Shown one piece after another: positions 1,805 through 19,257 of a stretch of DNA of 23,588 nt. Position numbers and translations under genes: made by a program. Under the pieces are notes generated by a model that worked only from the letters and a program-made list of their open reading frames with translations, was not told the origin of the DNA and did not search any database. This DNA is from a virus: IMG/VR virus record IMGVR_UViG_3300037119_005060, positions 1-23,588 of that record, one strand, 5' to 3'. Position 1 is the first letter of the stretch, and each line of letters begins with the position of its first letter.

Positions 1805-2724
1805 ATCAGGCGTCCAAAGAAGTTGCTTCCGATCGGCACCGTGCTCACGGCCGCGTTTCGGTTGTAGATGCTGATCCGCACGAAGTTGACCGTGTCGACG
1901 GTCCCGGTCCACTCCAGGCCGTAGGGCACCTGGTCCGCGAGCTCGGGCGAATCGATGATTGGCACCTTGCCCAGGGCCGCACCCGTCAAAGGGAGCACAA
2001 AGGAAACGCTGTTGCGCGGGTTAATGATGTATTTGAGCGGGGTCGATCCGCTAAAGGGCAGTCCGCTCACGACCGGCGCGGCGATCTTGGCGATATCGTA
2101 AGGGATCAACTCGCGACGGCCGACACTCGGCGGCGAGGTTTTGACGGCGGCCGTCGGGCGCGCGGTCGCGTCCAGTTTCGCGGTCGTGATCGCTTCCCCG
2201 TTCGGGTTCCAGACGTAGCCCGGCGTCACGTCCAGGTAACCCGTATCGTCCGAGCTGTGATCGGGGAGCGGGGGCGGACCCACTCCTGGCGGCCGTCGGC
2301 TCGTAAAGTTAATCACGGTCAGTTGTGTTCCGGCCAGGATGACCGGGGCCGGGCCTAACGTGACGGCCGAGGCGTAGATGTTGACCGAGTCCGCTTGCGT
2401 GACGGTTGCGCCGAAATGGACGGCGAGGGTTTTAATAAAATCGCAGTAGACCGGATCGCCTGGCCGCGCCCCGAGCATCGGCACGCTCCCGAGCCCGGTC
2501 ACCGGCAGGACCAGGGTGAGCTCGTTGACCTGGGTGTAAACGGCCCGCAAGCCGAGGAGTTGCTCCGAGATAATTGCGACCACGTCCTCCGTAATCAGTT
2601 GAGCATCGCCGATCACCTGACCGGCTAGCTCCATCAGCGGGGATCCGGTATCGTTCAGATCGGCCAGGGAAATGTTTTCCTCGTCGTCTGTCCATCGCTT
2701 GGAAGGGTAGACCAGGACGCTCAT
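1801..2724 (-). CDS. Hypothetical beta-rich virion protein, 307 aa
   Basis: The open frame reaches 2844, but the start chosen is the ATG at 2724-2722 (MSVLVYPSKRW). It overlaps the stop of the nozzle-like gene in an ATGA, and the 40 residues before it are basic, shadow-like sequence. The protein has an acidic N-terminal part (WTDDEENISLADLND). After it come alternating beta-type segments, a Pro-rich linker around residues 165-175 (RRPPGVGPPPLPDHS), and a second beta-rich half. No signal peptide, membrane helix or catalytic motif is visible. Its neighbours are the nozzle-like protein upstream and a smaller, possibly related beta-rich protein downstream. A role as a tail or virion surface protein is likely from position only. 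Confidence 0.7.
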   Translation of the reverse strand: MSVLVYPSKRWTDDEENISLADLNDTGSPLMELAGQVIGDAQLITEDVVAIISEQLLGLRAVYTQVNELTLVLPVTGLGSVPMLGARPGDPVYCDFIKTLAVHFGATVTQADSVNIYASAVTLGPAPVILAGTQLTVINFTSRRPPGVGPPPLPDHSSDDTGYLDVTPGYVWNPNGEAITTAKLDATARPTAAVKTSPPSVGRRELIPYDIAKIAAPVVSGLPFSGSTPLKYIINPRNSVSFVLPLTGAALGKVPIIDSPELADQVPYGLEWTGTVDTVNFVRISIYNRNAAVSTVPIGSNFFGRLI

Positions 2725-4550
2725 GCTGTGCGTCCTTCCCGTTCGGCCGGGGCGCTTTCGACCACCGTCCCTAAGACCGTTGCGTTGCCTCCGTTGCTTT
2801 CCACCCGGTAACTGGCGTAGCGCGTCCGGCGCGAGAGCGAACATTGGACGACACTTTCCTGTTCCACTTCGATCGGGATCGGCTCGCTCCCAGGGAGGAA
2901 ACCGTCTCCCGCCCGGATCGCGTAGTCGAGGCGTTTCGGGGCCAGAAAATCGTCGTTGGCGTTGGTGATGAGATAGGGGGCTTGACTGAGCACGTCGTAC
3001 TTCGTTCGGTCCGGGTCGATCTTTTTCTTTACCTCCTCGTCATTCACCCCGGCCAGGAGCTCGGTCACGACCACGTTGGGATCATAGGTCGAGATGGCGA
3101 GCTGGAGCCCGGCCATTTTCCGTTTCATGTTCCCGGTCGCCCCGATCGTCGCGTAGCCGCGCGTCTCCATGACCCCCCGGATCGGGTAGGTCTTGGGCTC
3201 CTCGCCCGCCGCGTTGGCTTGCTGGAGTTGATCGTCGCGGCCCTCATACATGAGGCGCACCGCGGCCGGGCTGTTGCTCACCGCCCAAACGCGGCGACGG
3301 CCGTAGAACTCGAAGCCGATCAGGTTATCGATTCGGAGCGGGTTAGGGATCGGCGGATCCACCCGGCCCCGCCGGTCGACATGTTCCCGGCCAAACCAGA
3401 GATCCACCGCTGCCCATTTCCGGGTTACGATATCGAGGACCAGGACGGCGTTGTTAAAATTGCATCCGTCCATCGGGACCGAGAAATAGGCGAAAGTCCC
3501 GTCCATGTTCGCGCAAGCCTGGTCGATCGCGGCCCAATTGATCCGGTTAAAGAGCGGCGCGATCATGTCGCTCACTGGCGTCGGATCGATCTCGAGGCCG
3601 CCCGCCGGTTGCCCGGTCCGCCCGGTCTGGATGATCCGGTAAATCGCGCCTTTGCCCGCGTCGGAGAGGAACAGGAGCTCGCTCCCGGTAAACACCGCGC
3701 ACTTGCGAGCGGCCAGGCCGACCCCTGCGGGCCCAGGAATGTTGTTCATGCTCGGGGGCGGATCGCTCGCCGGGGAGAGGTTCAAGGCCAGGGCGCGAAA
3801 CCACGAATCGCCCAGGTCGCCCGGGATCGGGCCGAGCAGGTCAAAGGATCGGCCTTTGCCGATGATGAGCCCGAATTGCGCCGGGTAAGGGAAGGCCCCG
3901 ACAATGTCGTCGCTTGTCCCGGTGTTGATCCGAAACTTGTGCAAGATCGAATCGTAAAGGGTGTAGTTGTTGATATCGCTCGCCCCCATCCAACCGGGCT
4001 CGGTCGGGATCGGGAACCAGGCCCGGCCCAAAAAGTTGATACTCCAGGGTGCGCGCGGGATCGGGAGGAACCCGAGCCCCAGGCTCGGCTCAGGGATATC
4101 GGTAAAGCCGAGTGGATCCAGGCCGTCCCATTGCAGGGTCGGCATACTGATATCGTCCGAGTGCATCAGGACCTTGTCGAATTGCTGGCAAAACTCGATC
4201 CGGCCGAACGGCGCGAATGGTGTCGGGATCTCGACCGGCACGGTCCCGGAGCGGATTGAGATCACCTTGGTCTGCGTGGCTAGGAGGCCCATCTCGCGAC
4301 CGTTCGGGTTCGAGTAGGGGCCGCTCCCCAGGAGAGTGTTGGCCCCGTATAAATTGGCAAAGAGCGGGGTCCTGGTCCCCGGCCGGTCGGTCACCTTGCC
4401 GTCGTGACACCGCTTATTGTCCCCGCGAGCGTAGTAGCCTGGCTGGAGCGTCCACCTGGGATCGCGCATGTTCAAGCCGACGAAGCCCTCGTCCCCCTCG
4501 AGGGTTGGCTGCGACGGCGAAACCGGCGAGAGATTGTACGGGCCGCTCAT
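2721..4550 (-). CDS. Probable tail nozzle/stopper-like structural protein, 609 aa
   Basis: The N-terminal region (FVGLNMRDPRWTLQPGYYARG, then an RPGTRTPLF segment around residues 57-65) has the layout seen in phage tail-hub, stopper and nozzle proteins. In those proteins a short Gly/Asn/Arg-rich start precedes a toroidal beta-propeller-like body. The rest alternates short beta segments with Pro/Gly loops, for example repeated SIRSGTVP, LLFLSDAGKGAIYRI and LVLDIVTRKWAAVDL, as expected for propeller blades. The C-terminal 150 residues (GVMETRGYATIGATGNMKRK onward) look like a separate beta domain. There is no signal peptide. The gene starts 6 bases after the endolysin stop, and its own stop overlaps the next gene. 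A nozzle protein closes the tail tip of short-tailed phages. The assignment rests on remembered family style, not on a search. Confidence 0.5.
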   Translation of the reverse strand: MSGPYNLSPVSPSQPTLEGDEGFVGLNMRDPRWTLQPGYYARGDNKRCHDGKVTDRPGTRTPLFANLYGANTLLGSGPYSNPNGREMGLLATQTKVISIRSGTVPVEIPTPFAPFGRIEFCQQFDKVLMHSDDISMPTLQWDGLDPLGFTDIPEPSLGLGFLPIPRAPWSINFLGRAWFPIPTEPGWMGASDINNYTLYDSILHKFRINTGTSDDIVGAFPYPAQFGLIIGKGRSFDLLGPIPGDLGDSWFRALALNLSPASDPPPSMNNIPGPAGVGLAARKCAVFTGSELLFLSDAGKGAIYRIIQTGRTGQPAGGLEIDPTPVSDMIAPLFNRINWAAIDQACANMDGTFAYFSVPMDGCNFNNAVLVLDIVTRKWAAVDLWFGREHVDRRGRVDPPIPNPLRIDNLIGFEFYGRRRVWAVSNSPAAVRLMYEGRDDQLQQANAAGEEPKTYPIRGVMETRGYATIGATGNMKRKMAGLQLAISTYDPNVVVTELLAGVNDEEVKKKIDPDRTKYDVLSQAPYLITNANDDFLAPKRLDYAIRAGDGFLPGSEPIPIEVEQESVVQCSLSRRTRYASYRVESNGGNATVLGTVVESAPAEREGRTA

Positions 4551-4556
4551 AGGTTC

Positions 4557-5153
4557 TCATGCTGCCATGACGCGATCGGCGGCGGGCGATCCGAGCGTTG
4601 CCTCGGCCAGGATCTCGACCCGGTTCAGCCATCCGTCGAGGAAACGGTCACGGAAGGGTTTGCCGTTGAGCTTGGCCGGTCGTTTCCGGTAATAGGTGCA
4701 ACGTGCCCGCAGAAAATTGATGAGCTCCTGGTCCCCGGCCGCGTTCACGGCCGCGAGCGTCTTGGGACCGATGAGGCCGTCCACCTTTGCCCCTACGGCT
4801 TTTTGTAGATTCGTCCCGACCCATCCGATCCCGGGGTTGACGGCCGAGTCCAGGACGGCCAGGTCCCACGGCGCTTTCATTTCGGCGCAGCGCGCTTTGT
4901 CCCAGGCTTCGTGGCGATAGATCTCGATCGCTTCCGCCTCGGTCAGGTTGACCACGTCGACGTTCGGGTGGTCGCGTTGGTCGATCCCGTATTTGGTCGT
5001 CCCGCCGGGATCGTTCGGGTCGCGATCGATATGCGCTCCGCCCTCCCGGGCCAGAACGAATTTGACGCACTCCAGGAAGCGAGCCTCTGAGGACGGAGCA
5101 ACCTTGGGCTCGGCGGACCCGGTGCCTTGCTTTCCAGTTACTCCGTCGCTCAT
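4557..5153 (-). CDS. Endolysin: GH108-type N-acetylmuramidase with C-terminal peptidoglycan-binding domain
   Basis: This lysin is predicted to cut the glycan backbone of host peptidoglycan at the end of infection. After about 24 polar residues, the GH108 signature appears with REGG (catalytic Glu expected at E37), then DPNDPGGTTKYGI at residues 45-57. The motifs LTEAEAIEIYRHEAWDKARC and LDSAVNPG (101-108) are also typical. The C-terminal half (VDGLIGPKTLAAVN, then YYRKRPAK and FLDGWLNRV) matches the peptidoglycan-binding domain usually joined to GH108. The length of 198 aa is normal for the family. No signal peptide or membrane anchor is present, so release to the periplasm should depend on a holin encoded just upstream. 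A purine-rich AAAAGG (5163-5168) lies about 9 bases before the ATG. Confidence 0.92.
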   Translation of the reverse strand: MSDGVTGKQGTGSAEPKVAPSSEARFLECVKFVLAREGGAHIDRDPNDPGGTTKYGIDQRDHPNVDVVNLTEAEAIEIYRHEAWDKARCAEMKAPWDLAVLDSAVNPGIGWVGTNLQKAVGAKVDGLIGPKTLAAVNAAGDQELINFLRARCTYYRKRPAKLNGKPFRDRFLDGWLNRVEILAEATLGSPAADRVMAA

Positions 5154-6212: not shown

Positions 6213-7118
6213 TTACACGTTCCCTTTGAGCCAGGTGATGACGGCGTCCCGGACCAGGATCGAGCTCCCGTTCTCAATTGGCAGGTTCCAATACTTGAAA
6301 GCGTGGGTCTGTTCGATCACTGGCACCGTCGCGAGCTTGAACGTGTTCGGCTCCGGCGTGTCGGCCTGGCTCTCGGTCATCCCGCATTTCAGCAGGCCCC
6401 GGATCAGGCTCGGGAACTGGAACGTGTCCACTCCGCCCGAGTCGTCGCTCGAGATCAACGCGAAGATCGGCGGGAGATTGTCTCGTTCCGCGTAGGTGAG
6501 CGGCGAGGCTTTGCGCAACGCCTTCATGTCCCAGGGACCATCGGGGAAGGTGTCCGGGATATCGACGTAGTTGGTGATCGCGTCGTGGTAGTTAGTCTCC
6601 CCGGGCGGATAATCGACTTTGAGATGGGCCTCGTCGTCGAACTGGTAGACCCCGCTGCATAGCACAACCAGGTCGGGCTTGTCATCGCCCCACTTCCCGC
6701 GCGCCGCCATGTACATCGCGTGCGAAGCGCCGGCCGATCCGCCGATACAATAAACGCGACCGTCACACCGTGGATGCGCGCGCGCAGCTCGCACGGCCGC
6801 CCGGCAATCGTCGCTCTGTTTCGGGTAATGACCCTCGTCGCCTACCGTGTTCTGACCTGGGGCCTGGTGGTTGGGCTCGTTCATCGCGTCGTGCGGTGGG
6901 GCCAGGCGATACTCGCTCGGGATCCCGATAAACCCGGCCCGGGCCAGATCGTCGGCCACGTTGAGCGGTCCCATCTCGCCCGACTTGAACCCGCCCGGGT
7001 GCCAGACAAGGCAGGCCGGGGCTTTCTCCGAGCCTGGCGGGAGGATGATGGACCATAGCAGTTGCACGCCACTGGAGGCGGTTCTAAAGGGGATTCGATC
7101 TGGTCGTTGTTGAGGCAT
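6213..7118 (-). CDS. Stand-alone alpha/beta-hydrolase (HSL/BD-FAE-like serine esterase), 301 aa
   Basis: This is a predicted carboxylester hydrolase. The oxyanion-hole motif HPGG lies at residues 40-43 (the family usually has HGGG). The nucleophile elbow GGSAG is at 126-130 with Ser128, a candidate acid is in SSDDS (Asp226), and the catalytic His is in THAF (His272). The length is normal for a single-domain esterase. It is clearly related to the N-terminal domain of the 1230-aa protein at 8391-12083. Both carry HPGG, then KSG, EYRLAPP, PGQ, GHYPKQ, DD, CDGRVY, IGGSAG and SH in the same order. There is no signal peptide, and no strong Shine-Dalgarno precedes the ATG at 7118-7116. It lies between a tail-fibre-like gene and the lysis cluster. 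A virion-associated polysaccharide deacetylase is attractive, but an intracellular esterase is not excluded. Confidence 0.85.
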   Translation of the reverse strand: MPQQRPDRIPFRTASSGVQLLWSIILPPGSEKAPACLVWHPGGFKSGEMGPLNVADDLARAGFIGIPSEYRLAPPHDAMNEPNHQAPGQNTVGDEGHYPKQSDDCRAAVRAARAHPRCDGRVYCIGGSAGASHAMYMAARGKWGDDKPDLVVLCSGVYQFDDEAHLKVDYPPGETNYHDAITNYVDIPDTFPDGPWDMKALRKASPLTYAERDNLPPIFALISSDDSGGVDTFQFPSLIRGLLKCGMTESQADTPEPNTFKLATVPVIEQTHAFKYWNLPIENGSSILVRDAVITWLKGNV

Positions 7119-7149: not shown

Positions 7150-7740
7150 TTATGGGATCGGGTAAATTGTGACGTAAAAGGAAATCGTCCCGGTGTTGAT
7201 GCTGTTCGCCATCTGCCGGATGACCAGTGAGCTCGAGATTGACATAACGGCGGCCGCGTTCGCGCCCCAATTGTTCGCGGTCGGGCTGCTGGTCGCGGCC
7301 GGGGCGGTCGTTTGCAGCATTTGTGTCCCTCCGCCCGCTGCCGCGTCGAAAAGTGCGAGCGTCCCGGCGGCCATCGATCCGGTTTGCGTCTCGTTCACGA
7401 ACCAACTGCACGCCGTGACGGCGGTATTGCCGCGCACCGCCCAACGGGTAACCCCGGCCGGGAGCGTGATCGTCGCGATATCCCTCGGGTTGCCGCTCGT
7501 CGTGATCGCCTGGCTTTTGAGGTAAAACGTGATCGCCCCGTTAATGACGGTGGCGTCGGCGGCCGTGGTCGTCATTTGCGCCTGGTTGATCGCGCCGGTC
7601 AGTTGGCTCCCGGCGATTGATTTGTTCGTGAGCGTTTGGGTCCCGTTGGTCGTGACGTTGCCCCCGGGGATCTGGATCTTTTGGGCGGATGCGGTCGCGA
7701 TCGCCGCGACCAGGAAGCTAAGAGCAAGAATGTTTTTCAT
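7150..7740 (-). CDS. Signal-peptide-bearing tail-fibre-like protein, 196 aa
   Basis: The start chosen is the ATG at 7740-7738 (MKNILALSFLVAAIATASAQ), 4 bases after the upstream stop. A start five codons earlier (MHLNT) is possible. Residues 1-20 form a textbook Sec signal peptide with a Lys, a hydrophobic core and an ASA-Q cleavage site. The mature part starts with Gly/Asn/Thr-rich sequence containing NGTQTLTNKSIAGSQLTGAI (about residues 32-51), a motif style typical of phage tail-fibre shafts. Beta-rich sequence follows (TLPAGVTRWAVRGNTA and SSSLVIRQMANS). The C-terminal part resembles a small tail or host-like beta domain. A cleavable export signal on a fibre-like phage protein is unusual. 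It could be displayed on the infected cell or the phage, or be a host-derived gene. Confidence 0.75.
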   Translation of the reverse strand: MKNILALSFLVAAIATASAQKIQIPGGNVTTNGTQTLTNKSIAGSQLTGAINQAQMTTTAADATVINGAITFYLKSQAITTSGNPRDIATITLPAGVTRWAVRGNTAVTACSWFVNETQTGSMAAGTLALFDAAAGGGTQMLQTTAPAATSSPTANNWGANAAAVMSISSSLVIRQMANSINTGTISFYVTIYPIP

Positions 7741-7744
7741 AGTG

Positions 7745-8386
7745 TTAAGGTGCAATTTTCCAGGCGATATAACGAGGGGATCCGGTCATCGAAATGACAC
7801 TGACGGCCCCGGTCCAGTTGTCGATCCTAACCTGGCCGCCCCGGCCATCGTCGGCCGCGACTCCGCAGGGCAGGATGAAACTGAGTGAGCTCGTCGTTGG
7901 GCTCGCCCCAAATTTCACCCCGAGCGCGTCGGCCGCGTCCAGGTTTTGAATAAACCCAACCTCTCCGGCGGCCAGAGTAAAGACGGTTGTGTTGTCGGTC
8001 GTTGAGATCGTGAAAGTGCTGGGGACCCCGGCATACTGTTTTAGGACGGCCGTGTTGGTCTTGATCGCGTCGATATCGGTCGTCAGGCGTCGCAGTTTGG
8101 CGGAGATCGAGCCTGTGCCTCCGGCCGATGAGACAGAATCCGCCAAGGTCCCCTCGACTACATCGGCCCCGTCCGCGATCGTGACGGCTCCGCCCCCGCC
8201 ACCACCGCCCCCGGTCGCGTCGACGTAGGCCCCGGCCGTGTCGACCAGGCGGACCGGGAGCGCGTGCGTCCCGTCGCTGTTCACCTTCACCTTGGGATCG
8301 TTGATGTTGACGTTGCTGGTCTGACCGATGGCCAGTTGGCAGAGGGCGAGCCCGGCGAGGGCCAGGACGAGGATCTTTGTTTTCAT
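7745..8386 (-). CDS. Signal-peptide-bearing tail-associated-like protein, 213 aa
   Basis: Residues 1-21 (MKTKILVLALAGLALCQLAIG, followed by Q22) look like a Sec signal peptide. A Cys lies inside the hydrophobic core, but there is no convincing lipobox at the cleavage point. The mature region starts VNINDPKVKVNSDG and PVRLVDTAGAYVDATG, and then has a run of eight Gly (about residues 59-66). After the linker come ADGADVVEGTLADS and a SISAKLRRLTTDIDAIK segment. The C-terminal beta domain (about 115-213) contains TISTTDNTTVFTLAAGEV and is probably a small jelly-roll. The Gly-rich linker joined to an ADGADV-type segment recurs in phage tail-associated proteins. The ATG lies 4 bases after the stop of the 1230-aa gene. 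It is paired with another signal-peptide protein downstream, so the two are probably functionally linked. Confidence 0.75.
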   Translation of the reverse strand: MKTKILVLALAGLALCQLAIGQTSNVNINDPKVKVNSDGTHALPVRLVDTAGAYVDATGGGGGGGGAVTIADGADVVEGTLADSVSSAGGTGSISAKLRRLTTDIDAIKTNTAVLKQYAGVPSTFTISTTDNTTVFTLAAGEVGFIQNLDAADALGVKFGASPTTSSLSFILPCGVAADDGRGGQVRIDNWTGAVSVISMTGSPRYIAWKIAP

Positions 8387-8390
8387 GTTT

Positions 8391-11300
8391 TTATGTTGGT
8401 GGATTTGGGACTACATCGCCCCACTCGTTCAAACAGGTGTCCGAAATTGTATTGACCGTGTCGGCCGGTGGCAAGGTTACTGCGAGCACGACCTGGCGGC
8501 CCCATCGGCGCGGGCCGGTCAGTCGGTAACGTGGCGGGTTCGCACCGACCTCGAGATGTTTGTCCTCGGCGCGGGCCAGGAACTTCGCGGCCTCCTTCTG
8601 GAACATGCCTTTTTGCTGGAGATCGGCCGCCTCGTCGCTTGCTACCATGTAAGTCACGTAGCCCGCCAGGAAGGCCGGGAACGGCACGAGCGCCCAATAC
8701 TGATCCGCCGACGTGTTTCCCGGATCGATCCCCTGGACCGGCTGGAGCGCCCGGTAAACGTCGCCGTCGCTCCAGAGCTGGAGATCGAGAGTTTTGTAGA
8801 GTTTCGTAGAATCGAAATCGCTCGCGCTGAAATGGTAGGTGACGGCGCGATATTTGATGAACACGGTCGCACCGCCGAACCGGAACACCTCGAGGCCGCG
8901 TGTGCTCATTTGCCAGGGGAGCGAGCGCGGGGTCGGCCGGGTCACGTCGCGCGGATCGCTCGGGAACACTTCCAAGACCTGGCCGAGCCGACGACGGCAA
9001 CGCTGGAGCTCCTCGACAAAGAAGTCGTTGGCGGCGAGCTCGAAGGAATTGAAGAACGCGATATTTGTCGGGACCGTGCCCCTGGGTGCGTCCAGGAAAC
9101 AACGATAATATCCCTGGCCGGTGACCAGGCCATCGACCCCGACCTGGCCCAGGTAATAGACTTCGTCGCCGACTTTCCAGTCGTCGATCGCGTTCCAGAT
9201 CCGGCGGAAAGCGCGCTCCTCGGTGATAGTCAGATCCGCCCAGGCGTGCAGAGTCCAGGCGTACTCGAGATGCCGGAAGATTTCCGAGATCCAGCGGCGC
9301 GCTCGAGCTGGCGTGAGATCGAACCACTCGATGGCCAGGAGATCCGCGATCGCAAACAGGATATGATCCCGGAAATTGAGCCGTTGATAGTTGAGCGACG
9401 GCGGAGGGATGAACGAGGGCAGGGGCGGGGGCGGTGGCTCGATGATGATTCCACCCGTAAAGAGGTCATGCGAGTATTCGATGGCGCCGGGGATCCCGAG
9501 CGCGTCGGCCGAATACATCTCCCGGTAATTGGCCCCGTAGCCAAAGATGATATTGCCGACCGTGTTGGAGATCGTCGTCGGATCGCCCGCCACTCCGCCG
9601 TTCATGCGGAAGTTGGGATCGTTAAAGCAAAACCAGAGATCCTGGCCCGCGACGAAGTTGCCCCGTTGATGAATATCCCAAAGGAGCTTGAGGGTCCCGG
9701 TTCCTGGGGCCAGTGGCGTCCTGGTTGAAAATGAGTTGACCGTGGTTACGAGGCGATTCGGGTAGGCAAAATTGATGTTCCCGCAGGTCGTTTTGGCCAG
9801 GAAATTCGGGATATCAGGGTCGCCCGCCAGGTCGGCCGCCGTCTTGTCGAGCACGTCCCCGTTATTGCCGATCGCCGTCTCGATCAGGACCCCCGGGAAA
9901 GCGGCCGTTGCCACGTCGAAGAACCCGGTCTGACGGAAGCGCACGTCCAGGACGACATTGCTCGCCGTCGCCGTCGTGTTATTGGTCAACTGGACTTCGG
10001 TCGGGCTCGTCCAGCTCGCGATAAAGGTCAGGTTTGGGATCCCGGCTCCTTCCACGCCTTTGCCAACGTCGGCCAGGGTCCAGTTCGCGCTGAGTGAAAC
10101 CAGGCGCTTGTTGCTGAACGTCTGGCCATCAGTGAGCGCGAAATGGGAGGTCTGCTTGATCGCCGTCTCGTTCATTTTGGCCGTCGTATAGCCCGCCCCG
10201 CGCGTCGCGAACGTGGTCCCGATCGGCGAGTTGAGCCATTGCTGGTTCCAGTCGATCGAGGGATCGCTCGGATCCTTGCCGTGCGGGACGTTCCAGTCCT
10301 CGGTCTGCGAGTTGGCGTACGCGATCCGAAACACCACGATCGACGATTTTTCGAGCGGGGTCAGGAGGTTGGTGAAGAACAGATCGTAACCCAAGCGGTT
10401 AATCATCCGCTTTTTGTATTTGCCGAAAGTCGGTTCCCAAAATACCGGGATCGTCGTCTCGTCCGGGCCGCTGTGGAATGGGCTCGGATCGTTGTAGGTG
10501 AAGGTCGTGCCGTGGACCATGTCGTTGTTGTTCGGCGCGACGCGCGGGCGGCCCGCAATCGTCCAGGCGCATCCGCTATGGCTGCCGGTCGCGTTCACGT
10601 TCACCTGTGAGGTTGGGCTCGAGGAGAGTTTGGCGGTCGTCCCGTTGGTGACGGTGCCGATGTAGGTCGGCGCTCCCGGGATATCGGTCCCGGTGATTTG
10701 GCGGTGCACGTCCGCATCCGAGAAATTGGCCAGGGCCGAGGTAATAACTTCCGACCCGATCGTGACTCCGTCGGTCACTGAGCCGGGGTTCCCGGCCGGG
10801 GTGTTGCCGATCGCCGTGAAAACGAAATCCGGGGTTTTGCCGAAATTGGTATCCGCGCCCGCCATCGTCGCGATCGTTAATTGGACCTTCTTCCCGGCCG
10901 CGACGGCCGCCTGGATCCGGGGGACCAGGTTGGTCACGGTGTATTCGTAGACGCCGTCGAGCCGCTCGTAATCTTTCCAGTCGGTGTTGATCCCGATGCA
11001 ATCGATGTTGGGGTCGTCGAGGATTTGTTGGGCAATGTCTTGCGACCCTGAGATCCCGACTATTACGCCCTGGAACGCTCCGCCGCTCGGGGGGATCGGG
11101 ATCCCGCCCTGGAGCCAGGCAATCATCGCCTGGCCCGCTGTCGTGTGCCCCGCGATCCCGTCGATCGGCGTGTCCCAGACTTGGAAAGCGTGTTGGTGAC
11201 CGGGCGATTGGACTACGTCGTATTTGACCTTGCGATATTCGGGAATGGCCAAGGTGGACCGGGTAAAGCCAACGGCCGGACTGGTCAGTTTGGGGATGAG

Positions 11301-12083
11301 GCCGTTTTGGACCTGGTCCTCGAGTGGCCCCTGGTCGCTTTGTCCGACGAGCCCGGTTGAGGTCGGGATCCCGAGCGAATCGTGGACCGACATCAGGACA
11401 TAACAGGGGGGCATGTCCGGGGTCATGTAAGTGACCGGCGAAGCCGTCGCGAGTAGCGCCAGGTCGGTCGGGTTCGGGAGGACCGGGTAGAGATAGGGGA
11501 TCCCGGTGTAGTTGGCGATCGCGTCGTAAGGATTGGTTTCGCCCGGGGTTGGCGGCAGGGAGAGGAGAATCGTGTCGGCCAGGTTGGAGACGCCGCAGCT
11601 CAGGATCCCGCAGAGATCCGGCCGATCGTCCCCGGCCGTGCCGGTCGCCATCATGTAAGCAACGTGCGAGCCGCCGGCCGATCCGCCGATTGCATAGACC
11701 CGGCCGTCGCACTCGACCCGAGCTCGAGCTGCCCGGATCGCTCTTTGCACGTCGTCCGTTTGCTTCGGGTAGTGGCCGCTGTCGTTGACCGTGTCCTGGC
11801 CGGGCACCGGGTGGTTGTTTCCGTTCGGTGGCGCGGCTGATTTCATCGCGTTCGCCGGAGGCGCGAGGCGATACTCGCAGGCCAGGACAACGAACCCGGC
11901 CGCTTGCAGGGAGTTGCTGACGGTGCCGTTGTCGTGCCCGCCCGATTTGTAGCCGCCGGGGTGGAACATGCAGACGACCGGCCAGGTCGGGCCGCCGCTC
12001 GTCGGAACGTAGCGCGTCCAATAAAGGGCGACGTGGCCGGGGATCCCGTCCGCGTCTGCGTATTTTTCGTAGACTCCAGCCAT
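8391..12083 (-). CDS. Multi-enzyme virion protein: esterase + glycosidase-like domain + C-terminal anchor, 1230 aa
   Basis: This is a very large fusion protein. Residues 1-327 form an alpha/beta-hydrolase with HPGG (41-44), GGSAG with nucleophile Ser135, a candidate acid Asp235 in SVHDS, and His298 in HQHAF. After a Pro-rich linker (about 328-335), residues 336-880 look like a TIM-barrel glycosidase-like domain. It starts with an IGINTDWKDYERLDGVYEYT segment and ends with GANYREMYSAD (850-860). Two related beta modules (about 437-500 and 651-714) interrupt this domain. A PPPPPLPSFIPPP linker leads to residues 896-1230. That part has helices, then a CBM5/12-like stretch (VGDEVYYLGQ, then YYRCFLDAPRGTVPTN) and beta-rich sequence, probably a virion anchor or binding part. 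The ATG overlaps the upstream TAA (TAATG). Enzyme activity and glycan substrate are inferred, and the TIM-barrel catalytic acids could not be assigned. Confidence 0.75.
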   Translation of the reverse strand: MAGVYEKYADADGIPGHVALYWTRYVPTSGGPTWPVVCMFHPGGYKSGGHDNGTVSNSLQAAGFVVLACEYRLAPPANAMKSAAPPNGNNHPVPGQDTVNDSGHYPKQTDDVQRAIRAARARVECDGRVYAIGGSAGGSHVAYMMATGTAGDDRPDLCGILSCGVSNLADTILLSLPPTPGETNPYDAIANYTGIPYLYPVLPNPTDLALLATASPVTYMTPDMPPCYVLMSVHDSLGIPTSTGLVGQSDQGPLEDQVQNGLIPKLTSPAVGFTRSTLAIPEYRKVKYDVVQSPGHQHAFQVWDTPIDGIAGHTTAGQAMIAWLQGGIPIPPSGGAFQGVIVGISGSQDIAQQILDDPNIDCIGINTDWKDYERLDGVYEYTVTNLVPRIQAAVAAGKKVQLTIATMAGADTNFGKTPDFVFTAIGNTPAGNPGSVTDGVTIGSEVITSALANFSDADVHRQITGTDIPGAPTYIGTVTNGTTAKLSSSPTSQVNVNATGSHSGCAWTIAGRPRVAPNNNDMVHGTTFTYNDPSPFHSGPDETTIPVFWEPTFGKYKKRMINRLGYDLFFTNLLTPLEKSSIVVFRIAYANSQTEDWNVPHGKDPSDPSIDWNQQWLNSPIGTTFATRGAGYTTAKMNETAIKQTSHFALTDGQTFSNKRLVSLSANWTLADVGKGVEGAGIPNLTFIASWTSPTEVQLTNNTTATASNVVLDVRFRQTGFFDVATAAFPGVLIETAIGNNGDVLDKTAADLAGDPDIPNFLAKTTCGNINFAYPNRLVTTVNSFSTRTPLAPGTGTLKLLWDIHQRGNFVAGQDLWFCFNDPNFRMNGGVAGDPTTISNTVGNIIFGYGANYREMYSADALGIPGAIEYSHDLFTGGIIIEPPPPPLPSFIPPPSLNYQRLNFRDHILFAIADLLAIEWFDLTPARARRWISEIFRHLEYAWTLHAWADLTITEERAFRRIWNAIDDWKVGDEVYYLGQVGVDGLVTGQGYYRCFLDAPRGTVPTNIAFFNSFELAANDFFVEELQRCRRRLGQVLEVFPSDPRDVTRPTPRSLPWQMSTRGLEVFRFGGATVFIKYRAVTYHFSASDFDSTKLYKTLDLQLWSDGDVYRALQPVQGIDPGNTSADQYWALVPFPAFLAGYVTYMVASDEAADLQQKGMFQKEAAKFLARAEDKHLEVGANPPRYRLTGPRRWGRQVVLAVTLPPADTVNTISDTCLNEWGDVVPNPPT

Positions 12084-12487
12084 TAGCGTTTAAATCCGTC
12101 GATTTGGACTTGGATCTTTTTCGATCGGCTCCGCACCCGCATCTCAGGGTGACGGTTCAAAGTGTCGCGCAGCGTGGCCTTGTCCCGGAACCAGTTCGGG
12201 CCGTACTTCACACAAAGGAAATCCCAATCCTTTTTGCAGATTGAGGCGACTTGTTCCCCCAGGCCCTCGATATGCGCCCGCTGGACCCGGGCGTTGGCGC
12301 GGGCCAGCTCGAGCCTGTCACTGGCGGCCGCGATCGCTCTTACTTGCGCCCGCCGGATCAGGGCCGCGAGGCGCGGACGCAGGACCCGGCTTGTCTCCAA
12401 CTCGCGCAGGACGGGAGCACTCACGTTCTCCGGGAGCAGGATCGAGGTCCCCTCCTGGTCGAGCAGCTCCGGCAGTCCTGGCGTCAT
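12083..12487 (-). CDS. Hypothetical helical phage protein, 134 aa
   Basis: I do not recognise this family. Residues 1-30 are mixed and contain LLDQEGTSILLPENV. Residues 31-80 form a long Arg/Ala/Leu-rich helix (LETSRVLRPRLAALIRRAQ, then LELARANARVQRAHIEGLG), likely a coiled coil. The C-terminal 50 residues contain KKDWDFLCVKYGPNWFRDK and a basic finish (RVRSRSKKIQVQIDGFKR). The start ATG at 12487-12485 lacks a clear Shine-Dalgarno and follows the tRNA-like gene by 17 bases. The stop TAA overlaps the ATG of the large esterase fusion by one base, so its translation is probably coupled to that gene. A role as an adaptor or chaperone for the large fusion protein is possible but unsupported. Confidence 0.65.
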   Translation of the reverse strand: MTPGLPELLDQEGTSILLPENVSAPVLRELETSRVLRPRLAALIRRAQVRAIAAASDRLELARANARVQRAHIEGLGEQVASICKKDWDFLCVKYGPNWFRDKATLRDTLNRHPEMRVRSRSKKIQVQIDGFKR

Positions 12488-12504: not shown

Positions 12505-12592
12505 CGTTAAGAGCAGGGCCGGGGATCGAACCCGAGTTTTGCCCGCCAAAATGGCGAGCCGCCTTCCCACTTGGCTACTCCTGCTCTTAACG
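12505..12592 (-). repeat. 13-bp perfect inverted repeat enclosing the tRNA-like gene
   Basis: The arms at 12592-12580 (CGTTAAGAGCAGG) and 12517-12505 (CCTGCTCTTAACG) are perfectly complementary. They extend the acceptor stem well beyond the 7 base pairs of a normal tRNA. In RNA this would give a long stable stem, which could act as a processing site for cellular RNases or stabilise the transcript downstream of the capsid genes. The arms themselves are seen directly, and the function is inferred. Confidence 0.85.
12511..12585 (-). tRNA. tRNA-like gene, possible UUU anticodon (isotype uncertain)
   Basis: The minus strand folds into a cloverleaf. The acceptor strands are AGCAGGA and CCCTGCT, with an A-C mismatch at the last pair. 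The D-arm is GCC, loop AAGTGGGAA, GGC. The anticodon arm is CTCGC, loop CATTTTG, GCGGG, and the T-arm is TCGGG, TTCGATC, CCCGG. The T-loop is canonical. The anticodon loop is not: position 33 is A where U is nearly invariant, and the arm can also be drawn with a 9-base loop. By position the anticodon is UUU (Lys), but this is uncertain. CCA is not encoded. It sits in a 121-base gap between the small capsid protein and the next gene. It could be a functional phage tRNA, a degenerate one, or a tRNA-mimic processing signal. Confidence 0.65.
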
Positions 12593-13133: not shown

Positions 13134-14174
13134 TTACGGGTGAGAGTAAGCCAACGGGTCGATTTTCATGTGCTGCAAGGGGTTGCCAAACTCGAGGCCG
13201 AGGATCGTCTCGATCAAGCCTTCCAGGCCCGCGCCCATATAGGGGAGCATGGAGTGACGCAGATAGAACAAGGGCCGGGTCTGGACCTTGGTCATATCGA
13301 GCGCGTAGCCTCGTGTCACGTAGGGCATGAAGCTGCATTGTTCGATCTGGACCGTGCCGTTGTCGCCCTCGAAAACGTCGATCCCTTTGGTCAACGTCTG
13401 GCTGTCACCACGCGAGAGCCGAGTGATCGCCGTGAAACCCGTTTTGTTGGCTTCAAAGCGGCCGAAATTCTCGCTGATGTGCGCCTTCAAGAGCGTCCCG
13501 CAGAACAGAGTCAGTTCCGCGGTGCCCCCGAGCTGGTCGTGGCGGCTGCGGAGCATGTCGTTGAGCTTCTTCTCCGTGAAGGTCGGGGTGACCAGGTCGC
13601 TTGCGACCAGGTAATCGGTGTAGATCTGCGCCGTCGGCGTCCGGTAATCCTGCGGGATCGCCGTTTGTGTGTCGCCGAAGGTGAGCGCCGCGCCCGAGGC
13701 CCCGATCGAGGTCCCATCGTTGATCGCCCGGCCGAGCGCCATCAGCGCCTCGCCCTTGTCTTTCACTCCCTGATCTTCCTTCGCGTCCTGATCGCTCAGG
13801 AGCACGGTTTCAACGTCGAAGGATTGCTCGCGGATTTTCTTGGCCTTTTGGCCCTTATAATCCTGGCTTGCGCCCAAGAGCCCGCCGAGTTCTTCCGCCT
13901 CGGTCGTGACCATCGGGGTCCGCCAGAATTTCTGTTTCCGGTTGTAGAGCTTTTTCGCGTTGTCGCCTTCAAAGGCGTAAACGTCGATTCCTTCCGGCAC
14001 CGGAGCAGTCCGGCGCGCATTGGATTTCTCGACACCCCATCCATAAGGGCTGTCCATCATTTTCGGCCCCTTACGCACGCGGGCCAAGAATGTGACATTA
14101 CGGTCGTCGGCGAGGATGAGCGCATCGCTCAGATCCTCATGGCGGACCTGGTCCGCCTTGGTAACTCCCGGCAT
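13134..14174 (-). CDS. Major capsid protein, SU10/DUF5309-like, 346 aa
   Basis: This is predicted to be the shell-forming head protein with the HK97-type fold. The open frame starts at 14237, but a strong AAGGAG 8 bases before the ATG at 14174-14172 fixes the start at MPGVTKADQVRHEDLSD. The N-terminal part (NVTFLARVRKGPKMMDSPYGWGVEK), followed by an acidic YAFEGDNAKKLYN segment and a long helix (REQSFDVETVLLSDQDAKED), resembles the DUF5309/SU10-type capsid family. The C-terminal beta-rich half contains FCGTLLKAHISENFGRF and IEQCSFMPYVTRGYALDM. The length suits a capsid protein without an N-terminal delta domain, which agrees with a separate scaffold gene just upstream. The family assignment is from memory of sequence style, while the capsid role is strongly supported by gene order. 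Confidence 0.82.
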   Translation of the reverse strand: MPGVTKADQVRHEDLSDALILADDRNVTFLARVRKGPKMMDSPYGWGVEKSNARRTAPVPEGIDVYAFEGDNAKKLYNRKQKFWRTPMVTTEAEELGGLLGASQDYKGQKAKKIREQSFDVETVLLSDQDAKEDQGVKDKGEALMALGRAINDGTSIGASGAALTFGDTQTAIPQDYRTPTAQIYTDYLVASDLVTPTFTEKKLNDMLRSRHDQLGGTAELTLFCGTLLKAHISENFGRFEANKTGFTAITRLSRGDSQTLTKGIDVFEGDNGTVQIEQCSFMPYVTRGYALDMTKVQTRPLFYLRHSMLPYMGAGLEGLIETILGLEFGNPLQHMKIDPLAYSHP

Positions 14175-14182
14175 AGTAAATT

Positions 14183-14188
14183 CTCCTT
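14183..14188 (-). promoter_or_regulatory. Shine-Dalgarno AAGGAG of the major capsid gene
   Basis: The perfect AAGGAG lies 8 bases before the ATG at 14174-14172. It lies in the frame upstream of that ATG and so favours the internal Met over the one at 14237. It is among the strongest sites in the window, which suits the most abundant virion protein. Confidence 0.8.
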
Positions 14189-14205
14189 GGTTAGTTGTTG
14201 GTTTT

Positions 14206-15408
14206 TCAGACCATCGCCAACCCCACCCCACCCCCACCCTGGGCTTCGCTCAGGGCCTCGACATAATCAGCGTAGTCCTCATCGGTCTGGCTGCTGGCGA
14301 GGTATTTGGCGCGGGCTTCCTTCACGGACGTATCGGCCCCTGGGGCCGGTGGCGTTCCGCGAGCCGCCGAGGGCACGGCCGGAGCACGCTTGGGTTTCGG
14401 TGCGAGAAACGGTTGCAACTTGGGATCCACACTCGAGGACGGAGCGGCCGCTGCGCGCGCCGCCTGGGCCGGGAGCAGTCCGGCCGCGATCAGTTCTTCC
14501 TGTTGCTCGATCGCCGCCCTGGCCAGGGTCGCCGCGATCCAGCGACCGTTGATAGCGGTCTTGAGCGCCGGGAATTGCTCCAGCGTTTGGCTCGTCCATT
14601 TCGACATGTCACTCTCGGGATCACGCAGCTCGGGATGTTTGGTTTCGACGTGACGCTCCCACCCTGGGCGGAGCTCCTCCGCTTTTACTTGCGCGGCCGC
14701 CTGCTGTCCTTCCTGCTGGATCTGGATCCGGCGGGCCGGGATCTGCTTCGCGATCGCGTGGTTGGCCTTGACCAACATCTCGCGAACCTCTTGCGGCGTG
14801 AAATCCTTCGTCTCTTTCGAGTCGCCCTCTCCCACTTCTATCCCGAAAGCGCCGTCCAGGTTAAGGATGGCCCAATCGTGGATCTGTTCCGCGATGCGGA
14901 GGTGTTCGTCCAACGCCTCCATCGTCTTGAGGTTCTCGTATGGATTGCCGGAGCGCGCTGGCTGATCGGCCGGTGCGGCCGGTGGAGTCTTTTCGCCTGG
15001 CTGCTTTTCGAGGAGAGCCGTGAGTCTCTTGATCTCGGCGTCTTTCTCGGCCACTTGCGGCTCCAGTTCCCCTTTTATTTTGCCGGTGAGTGCGTCGATC
15101 CGGGCCAGGAGTTTCGGGTCGGTGTTGCGACGCTGTTCCTCCGTGAGCTCGGTCCCTTGCTGCGGAGCAGTCGATTGCTGCTCCTGGTGTTGCGGTTGCT
15201 GTTTCTCGACCTTGGCCCTGGCGCGATCCAGGATCTCCTTGGGCACGTCCATGAGTTCCAGCATCTCGAGCTCGGGCGCGCGGTCATCGACCGGCTCCGA
15301 GTGGGTTTGCTGTTCTCCTGAGCGGTCCTGTGGCCCTGGTGAGGCGACGTTGGCGCTGGTCTGACTTTCCCCGGTGACGCCCGGAGCGGCGGCTGGTTCA
15401 GCGTTCAT
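14206..15408 (-). CDS. Capsid scaffold-like protein, 400 aa
   Basis: The preferred start is the ATG at 15408-15406 (MNAEPAAAPGVTG), preceded by GGGAGG with 8-base spacing. The frame opens 30 residues earlier without such a site. The protein is acidic and rich in Gln, Glu, Ala and Pro. It has a disordered N-terminus, a helical part with KIKGELEPQVAEKDAEIKRL (coiled coil), a central ordered block around residues 150-300, and an Ala/Pro-rich tail ending GGGGVGLAMV. This composition and the position directly before the major capsid gene are typical of scaffolding proteins, which guide head assembly and then leave. No Ser protease triad was recognised, so no maturation protease is claimed. Its stop lies 31 bases before the capsid ATG. 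Confidence 0.75.
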   Translation of the reverse strand: MNAEPAAAPGVTGESQTSANVASPGPQDRSGEQQTHSEPVDDRAPELEMLELMDVPKEILDRARAKVEKQQPQHQEQQSTAPQQGTELTEEQRRNTDPKLLARIDALTGKIKGELEPQVAEKDAEIKRLTALLEKQPGEKTPPAAPADQPARSGNPYENLKTMEALDEHLRIAEQIHDWAILNLDGAFGIEVGEGDSKETKDFTPQEVREMLVKANHAIAKQIPARRIQIQQEGQQAAAQVKAEELRPGWERHVETKHPELRDPESDMSKWTSQTLEQFPALKTAINGRWIAATLARAAIEQQEELIAAGLLPAQAARAAAAPSSSVDPKLQPFLAPKPKRAPAVPSAARGTPPAPGADTSVKEARAKYLASSQTDEDYADYVEALSEAQGGGGVGLAMV

Positions 15409-15773: not shown

Positions 15774-16655
15774 TTATTTGAAAATCCCGTTGTATTTGAC
15801 CAGGAGATCCCGGTAGGCCGGATTTTCCCCGTCGGCCGAGTAGACCTCGACGAAATCCGCGCCCATGTTGTTCGCCGCGATGAAGCACTCCTCGAGCGTG
15901 CCTTTGAGATCGCCGCCGACGCTCCCGTCAGACGCTCCGGTCATCTGGAACCCGCCCGGGTGCGTGTCGTTAGCCGTAATCAGGTTGTTGATGTAAAACC
16001 CGCTGTTACTTTTGGCGTTGAGGCCCCATTGCATGACGCCAAAGAGCGGATAAGCCAGGAGAGCGCGGTTGACGATCGCGATTAGCTTGGCCTGGGCGCT
16101 CGGATCCTTGAAGGGCGTCCCTCCCGCCAGGATGAACGGAGTTTGACGGAGATAGGCCGCGTAAGTGTCGACCAGGAGATTTGCGACGACCGTCCAGGAG
16201 GCCATAAAATCCTCGTTCGTTTCCGCCAGGCCGATATCGGCCGGGAGCGGCATGTAGCTCTCGGTCTTGTAACCGAACCCGCCCATCGTGATGTAATCGA
16301 CCAGGCCGTCCAGGTGGATGCAAAGCTCGCGCGTAAACCGGATCAACTTGGGCTGCACGATCGGATCAAACGGGAGGATCATGGGCCCGGTCCCGAACTG
16401 TGGCGCGGTGTAGGCTTTTGCCCCGGCCCCGATCAACCAATCCGGGTATTTGGAAAGGCAATTGACGCTCACGCCCAATTGCTTCCGCGCGGCGACGGCC
16501 TCCGCGATCGCTTTGTCGATTACGCCGAATTTGAAAACGCCATCCGACGACTCGCATTGGTTCCAGCCAATGGTTTGTCTGTCGCCCCCGAAACCGGGGT
16601 TACTGAGCGGGTTGCCTCCAATTTCAAAGAGGCCGTGCGGTCGTTTGATTCTCAT
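15774..16655 (-). CDS. Stand-alone TIM-barrel glycosidase-like protein in the head module, 293 aa
   Basis: The sequence has the rhythm of a beta/alpha-barrel sugar hydrolase. It opens with TIGWNQCESSDGVFKFGVID, then a helix and a strand (AVAARKQLGVSVNCLSKYPDWL), later LDGLVDYITMGGFG, and ends with GADFVEVYSADGENP (about residues 265-279). The same ending motif, GA-x-x-x-E-x-YSAD, occurs at 850-860 of the large fusion protein. Both also share an opening of IG-x-N followed by a DGV(F/Y)-type segment, so they are homologous domains. Which Glu residues are catalytic is unknown, although E270 is conserved between the two copies. There is no signal peptide. It lies between portal-linked and scaffold genes, an odd place for a glycan enzyme. 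It could be a virion-bound hydrolase or a catalytically dead structural barrel. Confidence 0.7.
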   Translation of the reverse strand: MRIKRPHGLFEIGGNPLSNPGFGGDRQTIGWNQCESSDGVFKFGVIDKAIAEAVAARKQLGVSVNCLSKYPDWLIGAGAKAYTAPQFGTGPMILPFDPIVQPKLIRFTRELCIHLDGLVDYITMGGFGYKTESYMPLPADIGLAETNEDFMASWTVVANLLVDTYAAYLRQTPFILAGGTPFKDPSAQAKLIAIVNRALLAYPLFGVMQWGLNAKSNSGFYINNLITANDTHPGGFQMTGASDGSVGGDLKGTLEECFIAANNMGADFVEVYSADGENPAYRDLLVKYNGIFK

Positions 16656-16696: not shown

Positions 16697-17020
16697 TCAC
16701 GGCCGGGTCGGTGCCATTTTCGCGGAGTTGCGGATCCGGCCTTGCACTCGGCGAGCGTAGAGAGTTGAGCGCAGATCGGAGAGAGCTTTGGATCCGCCCA
16801 GGTGCCCGGCGGCCGTCGTCGGATCGCCCAGGTAAGCCTGGGCGCTTGCGATCGAGTTGCGCTCGGCCGTGTCGATCAACTGGTTGAACGCTCGCCAGGC
16901 CGGATGCGTGTCGGGCAAGGTGGTCAGGATCTCGTTGAGCTCGAGCTCGCCTAACTGTTTCCCCTCGCGCACGACCACGATCGGCGCGGGGCGGAAAATG
17001 GCCTCGAGGAATTTATTCAA
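16697..17020 (-). CDS. Small portal-linked hypothetical protein with TTG start, 107 aa
   Basis: The only sensible start is TTG at 17020-17018, which overlaps the portal stop TGA in a TTGA. This implies translation coupled to the portal gene. The protein begins (M)NKFLEAIFRPAPIVVV, then has a helical part (LNEILTTLPDTHPAWRAFNQLIDTAERN) and a SKALSDLRSTLYARR segment near the end. Small helical proteins of this style, with a HP-x-W/L-x-A motif before a long helix, often follow the portal gene in phages, but their function is not established. It may help head assembly or DNA packaging. There is no signal peptide or membrane helix. Confidence 0.65.
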   Translation of the reverse strand: MNKFLEAIFRPAPIVVVREGKQLGELELNEILTTLPDTHPAWRAFNQLIDTAERNSIASAQAYLGDPTTAAGHLGGSKALSDLRSTLYARRVQGRIRNSAKMAPTRP

Positions 17021-19257
17021 TAGCCGCCCCCTGTGCTCGGGCCTTTGGTCGTCGGGAGCGCCTTTTGCGGTTCGATCGCCGAGGTCGCCAGGGTCCGGCC
17101 GATTTCCGGGTTGTCCCGGTATTGCTGGATCTGTTTTTGGAAGAATTGCAGCCGTTGTTGCAAGATCTCGACCGTGTCGGGGTTATCGGCCAGGCGTTTC
17201 GCCATCCTTGGGTTTTTCGACTGGAACGTCGCGTTCGTCAGCACGTCGGCCCGGAGCTGGTGGTTGCCGTGCATTGGCGGCGGGACTTCCAGGCCGTTAA
17301 AGGCGCTATTGATCGCCCCGAGCTCGTCTTTCATCTCTTGCTGCGTGGCTTCCTGCTGTGGTCGGCTGATCCGATCGACCAGGCTCGGGTCGAGCATCTC
17401 GAGGCCAACGTCCGCGACCTGGCTCATGTCGTATTTGCCGGTCTGATCGAGCTGGAGGAGCTGCTGGACAAGCGGGATCATTTTGGCCGCGTATTCCTCG
17501 CCCAGGTTGCGCGGATCGTAGAGTGCCCGGATCTCGTGCTGCGCCTGGATCGCGCGGGCGTCCAGGTGAAACGGCCGGCGGAGTGGTCCGACCACGGCCT
17601 GGACTTTGGCGTCCGCCTCGAACTGTTGCATCAGCATGAAAGTATGTTCCAAGACCTGGGTGTATTCGGCCAGGATATCGAAGGTCATTTCCTGGCGGTA
17701 AGCGGCCTTGAGCTCGGGATCGATGTTGACCCCAAAGAGCGGGAGAAACTCCTCCGCCCGCAGTTCCACCCGGTTCTCGATCTCGATCGAGCGCACGCTC
17801 GGCGGGGGCAAATTCATAAACTGGTAATCGGTCGCGCGATCGACCCCGAGGACGGCTCGCGGGAGCGGGTAGCCGCCCAGGGTGTCCATTCGGTTCTTGG
17901 GCACGATCAGGGGCGGGCCGAGCTCGAGCGCGGTTAGATCGGTCCGGCCGTCGCATTGCGTCTTGATCTCTTTCTCCCAGGTGTAGAGCTTTTCCGGGAT
18001 CCCTTCGCTCGAGAAGATCGGGCCGTCTGTGTGCTCAATCCGGTGCACCACGTAGGGGTAACGGCCGTGATCGTAGTCCAGTTTCTCGTGCGTGGCGTAA
18101 AACGGGTTTTTGCCCTTGTCCCCGATCGCGAGCGGGTTGAACACCGTCTCGTAAATGCACGTCGAACCCTGCTCGCTCGTCCGATAGCGGGTGTGATAGA
18201 GCTCGTACATCTCCTTGAAGGTGCCGTCCCATTGCGGTTGGTAGTGGCCGGTCCGGCTGCTCGCCCCGTCCTGATAATAGTTGCGCTCGCCCATTGTCCG
18301 GCCGGTCCAGGTCGCGTTCGCCGTCTCGCCCTTGTGTTTGAGGAGCTCGGCCACGAAGTCCTCGCGGTAATCGCGCAAGCGGATCCGGCTGATGAGATCC
18401 TCGCGCGTCACCCATTCGCGATCGGCGATGTAAGGCGCGGCCTGGAGATCGCGCGTCTCGAGAGGGAAAAGCACGTCCACCCCGAGCCGTTTCGCGGTCC
18501 ACCGCGGTTGTGATTTGTAGGTGTAACGAACCGGGACCTGGGCTGTGCCCATGACCTGGAGATCGTCCAGGACCCGGGCCGCTGTCCGCCTCGTCAGCAC
18601 GTCGGAGATCTGCATCAGGAGCTCGATATAATTCTCCTCGTAGGCCGGATCCCGGAGCGTCTCCATGATCCGCACCATGTTGTTAGGCTTGCCCGTCTTG
18701 GACTGGATAAACATGTCGATCAACGGGAGCGTGAGCTCGTGCTCGTCGATCCGCTCCTCCTGAGCCCACTCGACCGCCATCAGGCACGCCCCGTAGGCGT
18801 ACCGCCAGTTGAGGCACAAGGGGATCTCGCGCCGGACGTTTTCCGCCATTTTGGTCCCTACCATCCACTTGAGGAACATCGTTGCCTGGCTCGTCTCGCG
18901 GGTGCCGATCGCGGGCCGGAACGCTTCGCATTGGATCTTGGCGTTGTAGCTAATGATCTTGCCAACCATGACGTGGCGGCGGACGTGTTTCTCGGCCAGG
19001 CGGATCCGGGTGTCGGAAGATCCTTCCCAGGGAAAGGGTTCGTCTGGATCGTCGGCGTAAGCGTGCTTGAGGCCGTCGTCGCTTTGCCCGTCCCATCTGG
19101 CGTGCCAATAGCCGTAGCAGTTATCCCAACGATCATAGACTCCGTTCAAGTCAGTCAGGGATTTGTTAATGGCCGCGCTGAGAGCCTTGATTTTCGGCTT
19201 CTCGCTGGCCAGTTCGATGAGATCTTCTTCGCGTTCGCGTTCGGTTAATTCGATCAT
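17017..19257 (-). CDS. Portal protein, 746 aa
   Basis: This protein is predicted to form the dodecameric ring at one capsid vertex, through which DNA is packaged and ejected. An N-terminal helical part with YWHARWDGQSDDG is followed by PDEPFPWEGSSDTRIRLAEKHV (about residues 71-92). That segment has the PFP-G-x-SD pattern common near the start of portal proteins. A long alpha/beta body follows. Residues near 405-520 contain FSSEGIPEKLYTWEKEIKTQ and PLIVPKNRM, and a helical region with VLEHTFMLMQQFEADAKVQ resembles the portal stem and crown. The Gln-rich C-terminal helix (VEILQQRLQFFQKQIQQY) is also usual. The length suits large podovirus-like portals. The start overlaps the upstream zinc-ribbon gene (ATGA), and the stop overlaps the TTG of the next gene. 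The terminase upstream and scaffold/capsid genes downstream support the call. Confidence 0.85.
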   Translation of the reverse strand: MIELTEREREEDLIELASEKPKIKALSAAINKSLTDLNGVYDRWDNCYGYWHARWDGQSDDGLKHAYADDPDEPFPWEGSSDTRIRLAEKHVRRHVMVGKIISYNAKIQCEAFRPAIGTRETSQATMFLKWMVGTKMAENVRREIPLCLNWRYAYGACLMAVEWAQEERIDEHELTLPLIDMFIQSKTGKPNNMVRIMETLRDPAYEENYIELLMQISDVLTRRTAARVLDDLQVMGTAQVPVRYTYKSQPRWTAKRLGVDVLFPLETRDLQAAPYIADREWVTREDLISRIRLRDYREDFVAELLKHKGETANATWTGRTMGERNYYQDGASSRTGHYQPQWDGTFKEMYELYHTRYRTSEQGSTCIYETVFNPLAIGDKGKNPFYATHEKLDYDHGRYPYVVHRIEHTDGPIFSSEGIPEKLYTWEKEIKTQCDGRTDLTALELGPPLIVPKNRMDTLGGYPLPRAVLGVDRATDYQFMNLPPPSVRSIEIENRVELRAEEFLPLFGVNIDPELKAAYRQEMTFDILAEYTQVLEHTFMLMQQFEADAKVQAVVGPLRRPFHLDARAIQAQHEIRALYDPRNLGEEYAAKMIPLVQQLLQLDQTGKYDMSQVADVGLEMLDPSLVDRISRPQQEATQQEMKDELGAINSAFNGLEVPPPMHGNHQLRADVLTNATFQSKNPRMAKRLADNPDTVEILQQRLQFFQKQIQQYRDNPEIGRTLATSAIEPQKALPTTKGPSTGGGY

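Follow-up and report, generated by a model that had tools for sequence, protein, structure and literature searches.

The fusion gene and its domains

We analysed a 23.6-kb virus record (IMGVR_UViG_3300037119_005060; 23,588 nt, hereafter the window), in which an open reading frame (ORF; P0001, 8391..12083, minus strand) encodes a 1230-residue fusion protein. The 1230 codons form a single open frame without internal stop, confirming the single 1230-residue protein of the first-pass annotation. From the N-terminus, the protein consists of (i) an esterase domain (residues 1–330; 11094..12083), (ii) an orphan middle region (residues 337–880; 9444..11075) and (iii) a domain of the head-to-tail adaptor family (residues 897–1230; 8394..9395), all encoded on the minus strand. 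The middle region is flanked on the same strand by the linker IPIPPSGGA (residues 328–336; 11076..11102) and by the proline-rich linker EPPPPPLPSFIPPPS (residues 882–896; 9396..9440). The fusion ATG overlaps the stop codon of a small gene that lies between the capsid region and the fusion (12083..12487, minus strand; TAATG, context ctAATGg), a layout expected for translationally coupled genes.

The fusion protein is 100% identical in two longer sibling contigs (IMGVR 3300037071_003817 and 3300037070_006048), whose DNA shows zero differences from the window across 21.8 and 19.5 kb. Its presence there makes a random misjoin less credible, even if sibling-sample assemblies are not fully independent of the window assembly. 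GC content at third codon positions (GC3) is 0.76–0.81, alike in the three fusion segments and in neighbouring genes. Identical sibling DNA and matching GC3 therefore make a misjoin unlikely, and together with the open frame they speak against a possibility named in the first-pass annotation, i.e. that an assembly error had joined separate genes. A tblastn search with the whole fusion protein gave zero matches among 50,697 phages, and a back-translated-pattern search (i.e. with the fusion, its middle region and C-terminus, the esterase pair and the ORF P0003 described below) recovered only the two sibling contigs. PADLOC returned no match of any kind, and a role as a defence gene was rejected.

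The N-terminal domain is an alpha/beta-hydrolase of the HSL/BD-FAE type. Residues 1–330 match the Pfam family BD-FAE (PF20434; 37.8 bits against a cutoff of 26.8, E = 1.9e-9) and the 'esterase' profile phrog_3341 (E = 1e-7), and a PDB search gave weak HSL-type matches. The domain contains a GxSxG nucleophile, an aspartate and a histidine in the correct order, namely Ser135 within GGSAGG as the predicted nucleophile (11679..11681), Asp235 as the predicted acid (11379..11381) and His298 as the predicted base (11190..11192), all on the minus strand. The oxyanion motif is HPGG at residues 41–44, a variant of HGGG. The three residues and HPGG are invariant columns between the fused esterase and P0002, a stand-alone paralogue of 301 aa (6213..7118, minus strand) with 42–46% identity to it, and the triad proposed by the first-pass annotation therefore stands. 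Computation from the sequence thus shows that the fusion N-terminus belongs to an esterase family with a conserved triad. The domain looks catalytically complete; we infer both its catalysis and its substrate.

The stand-alone paralogue had been overlooked earlier. It lies near a GH108-type endolysin gene (4557–5153, minus strand; Pfam 1e-17, PHROG 315 5e-39) and may act in lysis or back up the fused domain. Among named phages, esterase relatives are only distant (mycobacteriophage esterases, ∼26% identity, E = 0.2), and a profile search of genome contigs with the esterase pair found none. Nor did we find the esterase or the middle region in the records of 30 relatives, a weak search that had no positive control. 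In 241 Verrucomicrobiota genomes, there were weak generic hydrolase matches and one adaptor-like match (30% identity, residues 937–1139). A beta-propeller match in the PDB search was rejected as a chance hit to one short, repeated GG motif.

The middle region was earlier proposed to be a TIM-barrel glycosidase-like domain, a fold that our analyses do not establish. It has no match in Pfam, NCBIfam, PDB, phage or plasmid searches, no glycoside hydrolase profile or structure matches it, and removal of two inserts still gave no PDB or Pfam match. A single-sequence AlphaFold2 (AF2) model has a mean predicted local distance difference test (pLDDT) score of 31.9 and is uninformative for or against a TIM barrel. 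The two inserts (residues 426–509, 10557..10808; residues 646–712, 9948..10148; both minus strand) are 33% identical (E = 1e-7) and represent a duplicated beta repeat of ∼70 residues, which the first-pass annotation did not mention. Residues ∼353–425 are weakly similar (one-to-one E = 0.007; hhalign P = 0.003) to P0003, a stand-alone orphan ORF of 293 aa (15774..16655, minus strand) with no relatives found. P0003 sits between the portal and scaffold genes. The glycosidase label is thus a guess from motifs read by eye, the only positive evidence for the cleavage half of the coupled de-esterification and cleavage suggested earlier, and that half is less certain than it was made to appear. Binding or cleavage of the polysaccharide targeted by the esterase is one possible role of the middle module.

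The C-terminal domain and its adaptor relatives

A portal-based scan yielded 80 related viral contigs (designated below by L numbers), whose ORFs we searched with the C-terminal 345 residues of the fusion. This query matches proteins in L021 (419 aa, 1.4e-29; 31% identity), L018 (279 aa, 3e-8) and L023 (236 aa, 6e-4); for residues 897–1230, L021 scores 7e-34. A profile built from these three reaches a large family that includes CDS0038 of C75C1; after iteration with more loci, it comprises 51 distinct members, the fusion included. A final adaptor-only scan adds five closer relatives, L138 (33% identity), L140 (30%), L141 (29%), L142 (26%) and L143 (27%). The nearest homologues of the fusion C-terminus are stand-alone proteins, and a plain adaptor of 200–280 aa is common among relatives. 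The head-tail adaptor profile phrog_1161 matches one of 30 relatives (E = 7e-4), and the window protein itself matches no curated adaptor profile. Nanobody matches to the C-terminus (E = 0.03) were set aside as chance.

The genes of all 51 members share the strand of the major capsid gene and follow it at a median distance of 800 nt, 50 of them within about 2 kb; the exception, at 11 kb, encodes a second paralogue on the L021 contig. In the window, the major capsid protein belongs to the SU10_MCP family (13134..14237, minus strand; Pfam 9e-25).

An AF2 model of the C-terminal domain with 30 aligned sequences is fair (pLDDT 75.5, predicted template modelling score 0.67) and shows two pairs of helices separated by a long beta insertion and followed by a C-terminal arm of low confidence. 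A Foldseek search of the PDB with this model returned mostly adaptor and neck chains at the top (probability up to 0.99), i.e. 9bgm of DEV, 9efk of LME-1 (probability 0.99), 9d83 of B2, 9d80 of Moo19 and 8ck1 of Carin1, followed by 9nwi of Pa223, 7qoi of crAss001, 7wmp of KHP30 and 7z47 of SU10. Matches in BFVD include entries named 'head to tail adaptor' and 'tail tubular protein Gp11'. The layout of helices, insertion and (low-confidence) arm is that described for DEV gp83 and SU10 gp11. The DEV adaptor gp83, present in twelve copies, is a helical bundle whose helices 2 and 3 are separated by an outward-facing insertion and whose arm slots in between subunits of the portal (PMC10925440). SU10 gp11 is a dodecamer with a helix bundle, a fibre-dock domain and an embracing loop, and it provides attachment sites for six long fibres (PMC9509320). 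Adaptors of this family assemble as 12-mers on the portal and typically use an outward beta insertion to dock fibres.

These computations show that the fusion C-terminus belongs to the head-to-tail adaptor family. The first-pass annotation had described it as a generic anchor with a carbohydrate-binding module (CBM)5/12-like stretch. The stretch is present, lying in the beta insertion between helices 2 and 3 (residues ∼952–1120; 8724..9230, minus strand), and the presumed anchor is a complete adaptor-family domain with a CBM-like insertion. We rejected a separate CBM anchor domain, because the adaptor fold itself contains the stretch as an insertion, also in stand-alone adaptors. The Pfam profile CBM_5_12 is above its cutoff in the adaptor of L106 (30.4 bits against 26.2, 4e-7) and does not exceed it in the window protein.

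The relatives that carry additional modules have the adaptor first and the modules after it (876 aa in L140, 755–768 aa in L106 and L113, at least 558 aa in L138). In L140, for example, the adaptor-family protein (L140:7881–10511, 876 aa) ends in a ConA-like lectin domain (Laminin_G_3, 2e-11). The fusion ends right after a conserved T-I-S-D-x-C-x-x-E-W-G motif followed by prolines, the point at which the extensions of the relatives start. Among ∼57 distinct adaptor-family members, the window protein is the only fusion that bears an enzyme at its N-terminus. Neither within the linker EPPPPPLPSFIPPPS nor just after it is there an in-frame ATG, GTG or TTG, and searches of the window and of the sibling-contig flanks turned up no further adaptor copy. 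The adaptor therefore appears to be made only as part of the fusion.

A proposed enzyme-bearing neck ring and its alternatives

In podophages, enzymes usually sit on exchangeable spikes that dock to the neck. Our results suggest that the fusion is probably a portal-bound neck-ring adaptor of a podovirus-like phage, covalently extended at its N-terminus, through a proline-rich linker, by an esterase and an orphan module of ∼540 residues. The adaptor part would assemble as a 12-mer ring on the portal and would display its N-terminal parts outwards on the virion. Because the enzyme is fused to the adaptor, up to 12 esterase copies per virion would ring the neck. As the particle closes on the cell, the esterase would strip O-acyl groups from capsule, O-antigen or another surface polysaccharide. 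Such a de-acylating role is likely by analogy with Moo19, B2 and G7C, which carry esterase spikes (PMC11654681).

A wider proposal, on which we are evenly divided, is that the adaptor ring serves as a covalent display platform: relatives add lectin-type modules C-terminally, this phage places an esterase at the N-terminus together with an orphan module that may act on polysaccharide, and a 12-fold enzyme collar replaces docked tail spikes. If so, an essential ring protein would double as a host-surface enzyme with fixed copy number and limited scope for enzyme loss, and neck proteins would have another route to gain host-interaction domains. The lectin-extended adaptors of relatives make this idea general and testable.

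Several observations weigh against the portal-bound ring. First, direct BLASTP between the fusion C-terminus and CDS0038, the adaptor-position protein of C75C1, finds nothing; the homology runs only through profile intermediates and was accepted only after these had been found. Second, no Foldseek match in the PDB reaches 1e-3 (best E = 6e-3), and global similarity is low (target-normalised template modelling scores of 0.35–0.47). Third, every copy of the fusion belongs to one identical lineage. Fourth, we know of no solved precedent for an N-terminal load of 885 residues on a 12-mer ring. Fifth, L021, L140 and L141 each encode a second adaptor-like paralogue, which in L140 and L141 lies beside the portal gene.

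Because of these paralogues (505–524 aa; L098:17736–19292, L140:12554–14128 and L141:14149–15666, preceding the portal gene in the last two, where that gene lies downstream of the capsid block), the C-terminal domain might represent an additional paralogue of the neck or tail that forms a ring or docks fibres, and not the portal-bound adaptor; the virion would still display the enzyme. It is also the copy after the capsid gene that bears accessory modules. However, the window phage yielded a single copy, and the genes of nearly all family members follow the capsid gene at short distance, within the head-completion region; we regard this alternative as unlikely, although worth keeping in view.

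Alternatively, the fusion might be cut, or translation might start internally at a non-standard codon, so that a plain adaptor enters the ring and the esterase–middle part is released or packaged separately. The proline-rich linkers on both sides of the middle module and the plain adaptors of many relatives fit this possibility. Yet the linker is free of ATG, GTG and TTG, and neither a protease site nor a separate start is apparent, which leaves it rather improbable.

The first-pass annotation favoured a conventional tail spike or fibre, i.e. an esterase and a glycosidase barrel with a CBM-type C-terminal anchor. The esterase domain and CBM5/12-like stretches are indeed present, and the Foldseek matches include chitinases and chitin-binding tail proteins as well. 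By contrast, the CBM-like stretch belongs to the adaptor fold, the gene occupies the adaptor position, and the order of parts is reversed relative to a tail spike, in which an N-terminal virion-binding domain precedes the enzyme: here the enzyme comes first and the structural domain last. We therefore give the classical spike or fibre very little credence, and retain from the earlier proposal a virion-attached esterase fusion, now with a head-to-tail adaptor as its anchor. An assembly chimera or read-through that joined a free esterase gene to an adaptor gene is highly improbable: all copies come from sibling assemblies without a single-nucleotide polymorphism and no independent fused relative was found, but the frame stays open over 3.7 kb, both junctions have proline linkers, GC3 matches, no start codon exists for a separate adaptor, and the phage would lack an adaptor without the fusion.

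Comparison with known systems and neighbouring genes

The probable neck-ring fusion resembles the podophage adaptors DEV gp83, SU10 gp11, T7 gp11, P22 gp4 and B2 gp50 in its four-helix layout, beta insertion between helices 2 and 3 and low-confidence C-terminal arm (PMC10925440, PMC9509320), as well as in gene position after the capsid gene and in modest Foldseek matches. The known adaptors are ∼200–250 aa long without an enzyme, whereas ∼885 residues precede the adaptor here. The fibres of SU10-like phages attach to the adaptor without a covalent link. The homologous adaptor of L140 (IMGVR 3300050821_006553, 876 aa; 30% identity) also carries accessory surface-binding modules, including the ConA-like lectin, but its extension is C-terminal and of binding type, in contrast to the N-terminal enzyme of the fusion. 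A functional precedent for a dual-function adaptor is tail tubular protein A of Klebsiella phages KP32 and KP34, an adaptor-class protein with reported polysaccharide-hydrolysing activity (PMC5440376, PMC5741709); there, however, it is the small adaptor that is credited with the activity, and no separate hydrolase domain is fused to it.

Virion-borne esterases acting on O-antigen or surface polysaccharide are known from N4-like phages (e.g. the spikes of G7C, Moo19 gp82 and B2 gp48/49, and the esterase-like domain of the DEV fibre gp53; PMC11654681, PMC10925440). There, the enzyme sits on a trimeric spike or fibre of its own that docks to the neck or tail without a covalent bond, and no fusion to the adaptor is involved. 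Esterases on podophage tails are thus not unusual in themselves, and what holds of the unusual layout claimed earlier is the proposed place of the esterase, which would set the fusion apart from the usual tail spike. The phrog_3341 esterases (e.g. of mycobacteriophages LittleE and Courthouse) belong to the same broad alpha/beta-hydrolase family but are stand-alone, ∼26% identical and unfused to a structural protein. The adaptor–enzyme fusion reads as a variant of known adaptors, set apart by the probable neck location of its enzyme; literature searches of an open-access subset brought up no adaptor fused to a hydrolase.

Other genes of the window, all on the minus strand, include those of the portal protein (17017..19257; 25–36% identity to the portals of relatives), a nozzle or head-closure-like protein (2721..4550) similar to the C75C1 'head closure Hc3', and a small double-zinc-ribbon-like protein (19254–19730; below the Pfam cutoff) between the terminase and portal genes. 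Within the structural block, a tRNA-Lys (TTT; 12510–12586) separates the post-capsid gene from the small gene that precedes the fusion. Two genes beside the adaptor in this block (7745–8386 and 7150–7755) encode N-termini that by eye resemble Sec-type signal peptides, and genes of similar appearance also adjoin the adaptors of relatives (L138:7349–7777, L140:7449–7874 and L141:7470–7898). Beyond the window, a sibling contig carries a phage-integrase-like gene (L097:9905–11263, plus strand; sub-cutoff Pfam match of 0.002), a possible sign of temperate growth. Distant portal relatives occur in metagenome-assembled genomes of Kiritimatiellae, Opitutae and other Verrucomicrobia, the phylum whose genomes also gave the adaptor-like match.

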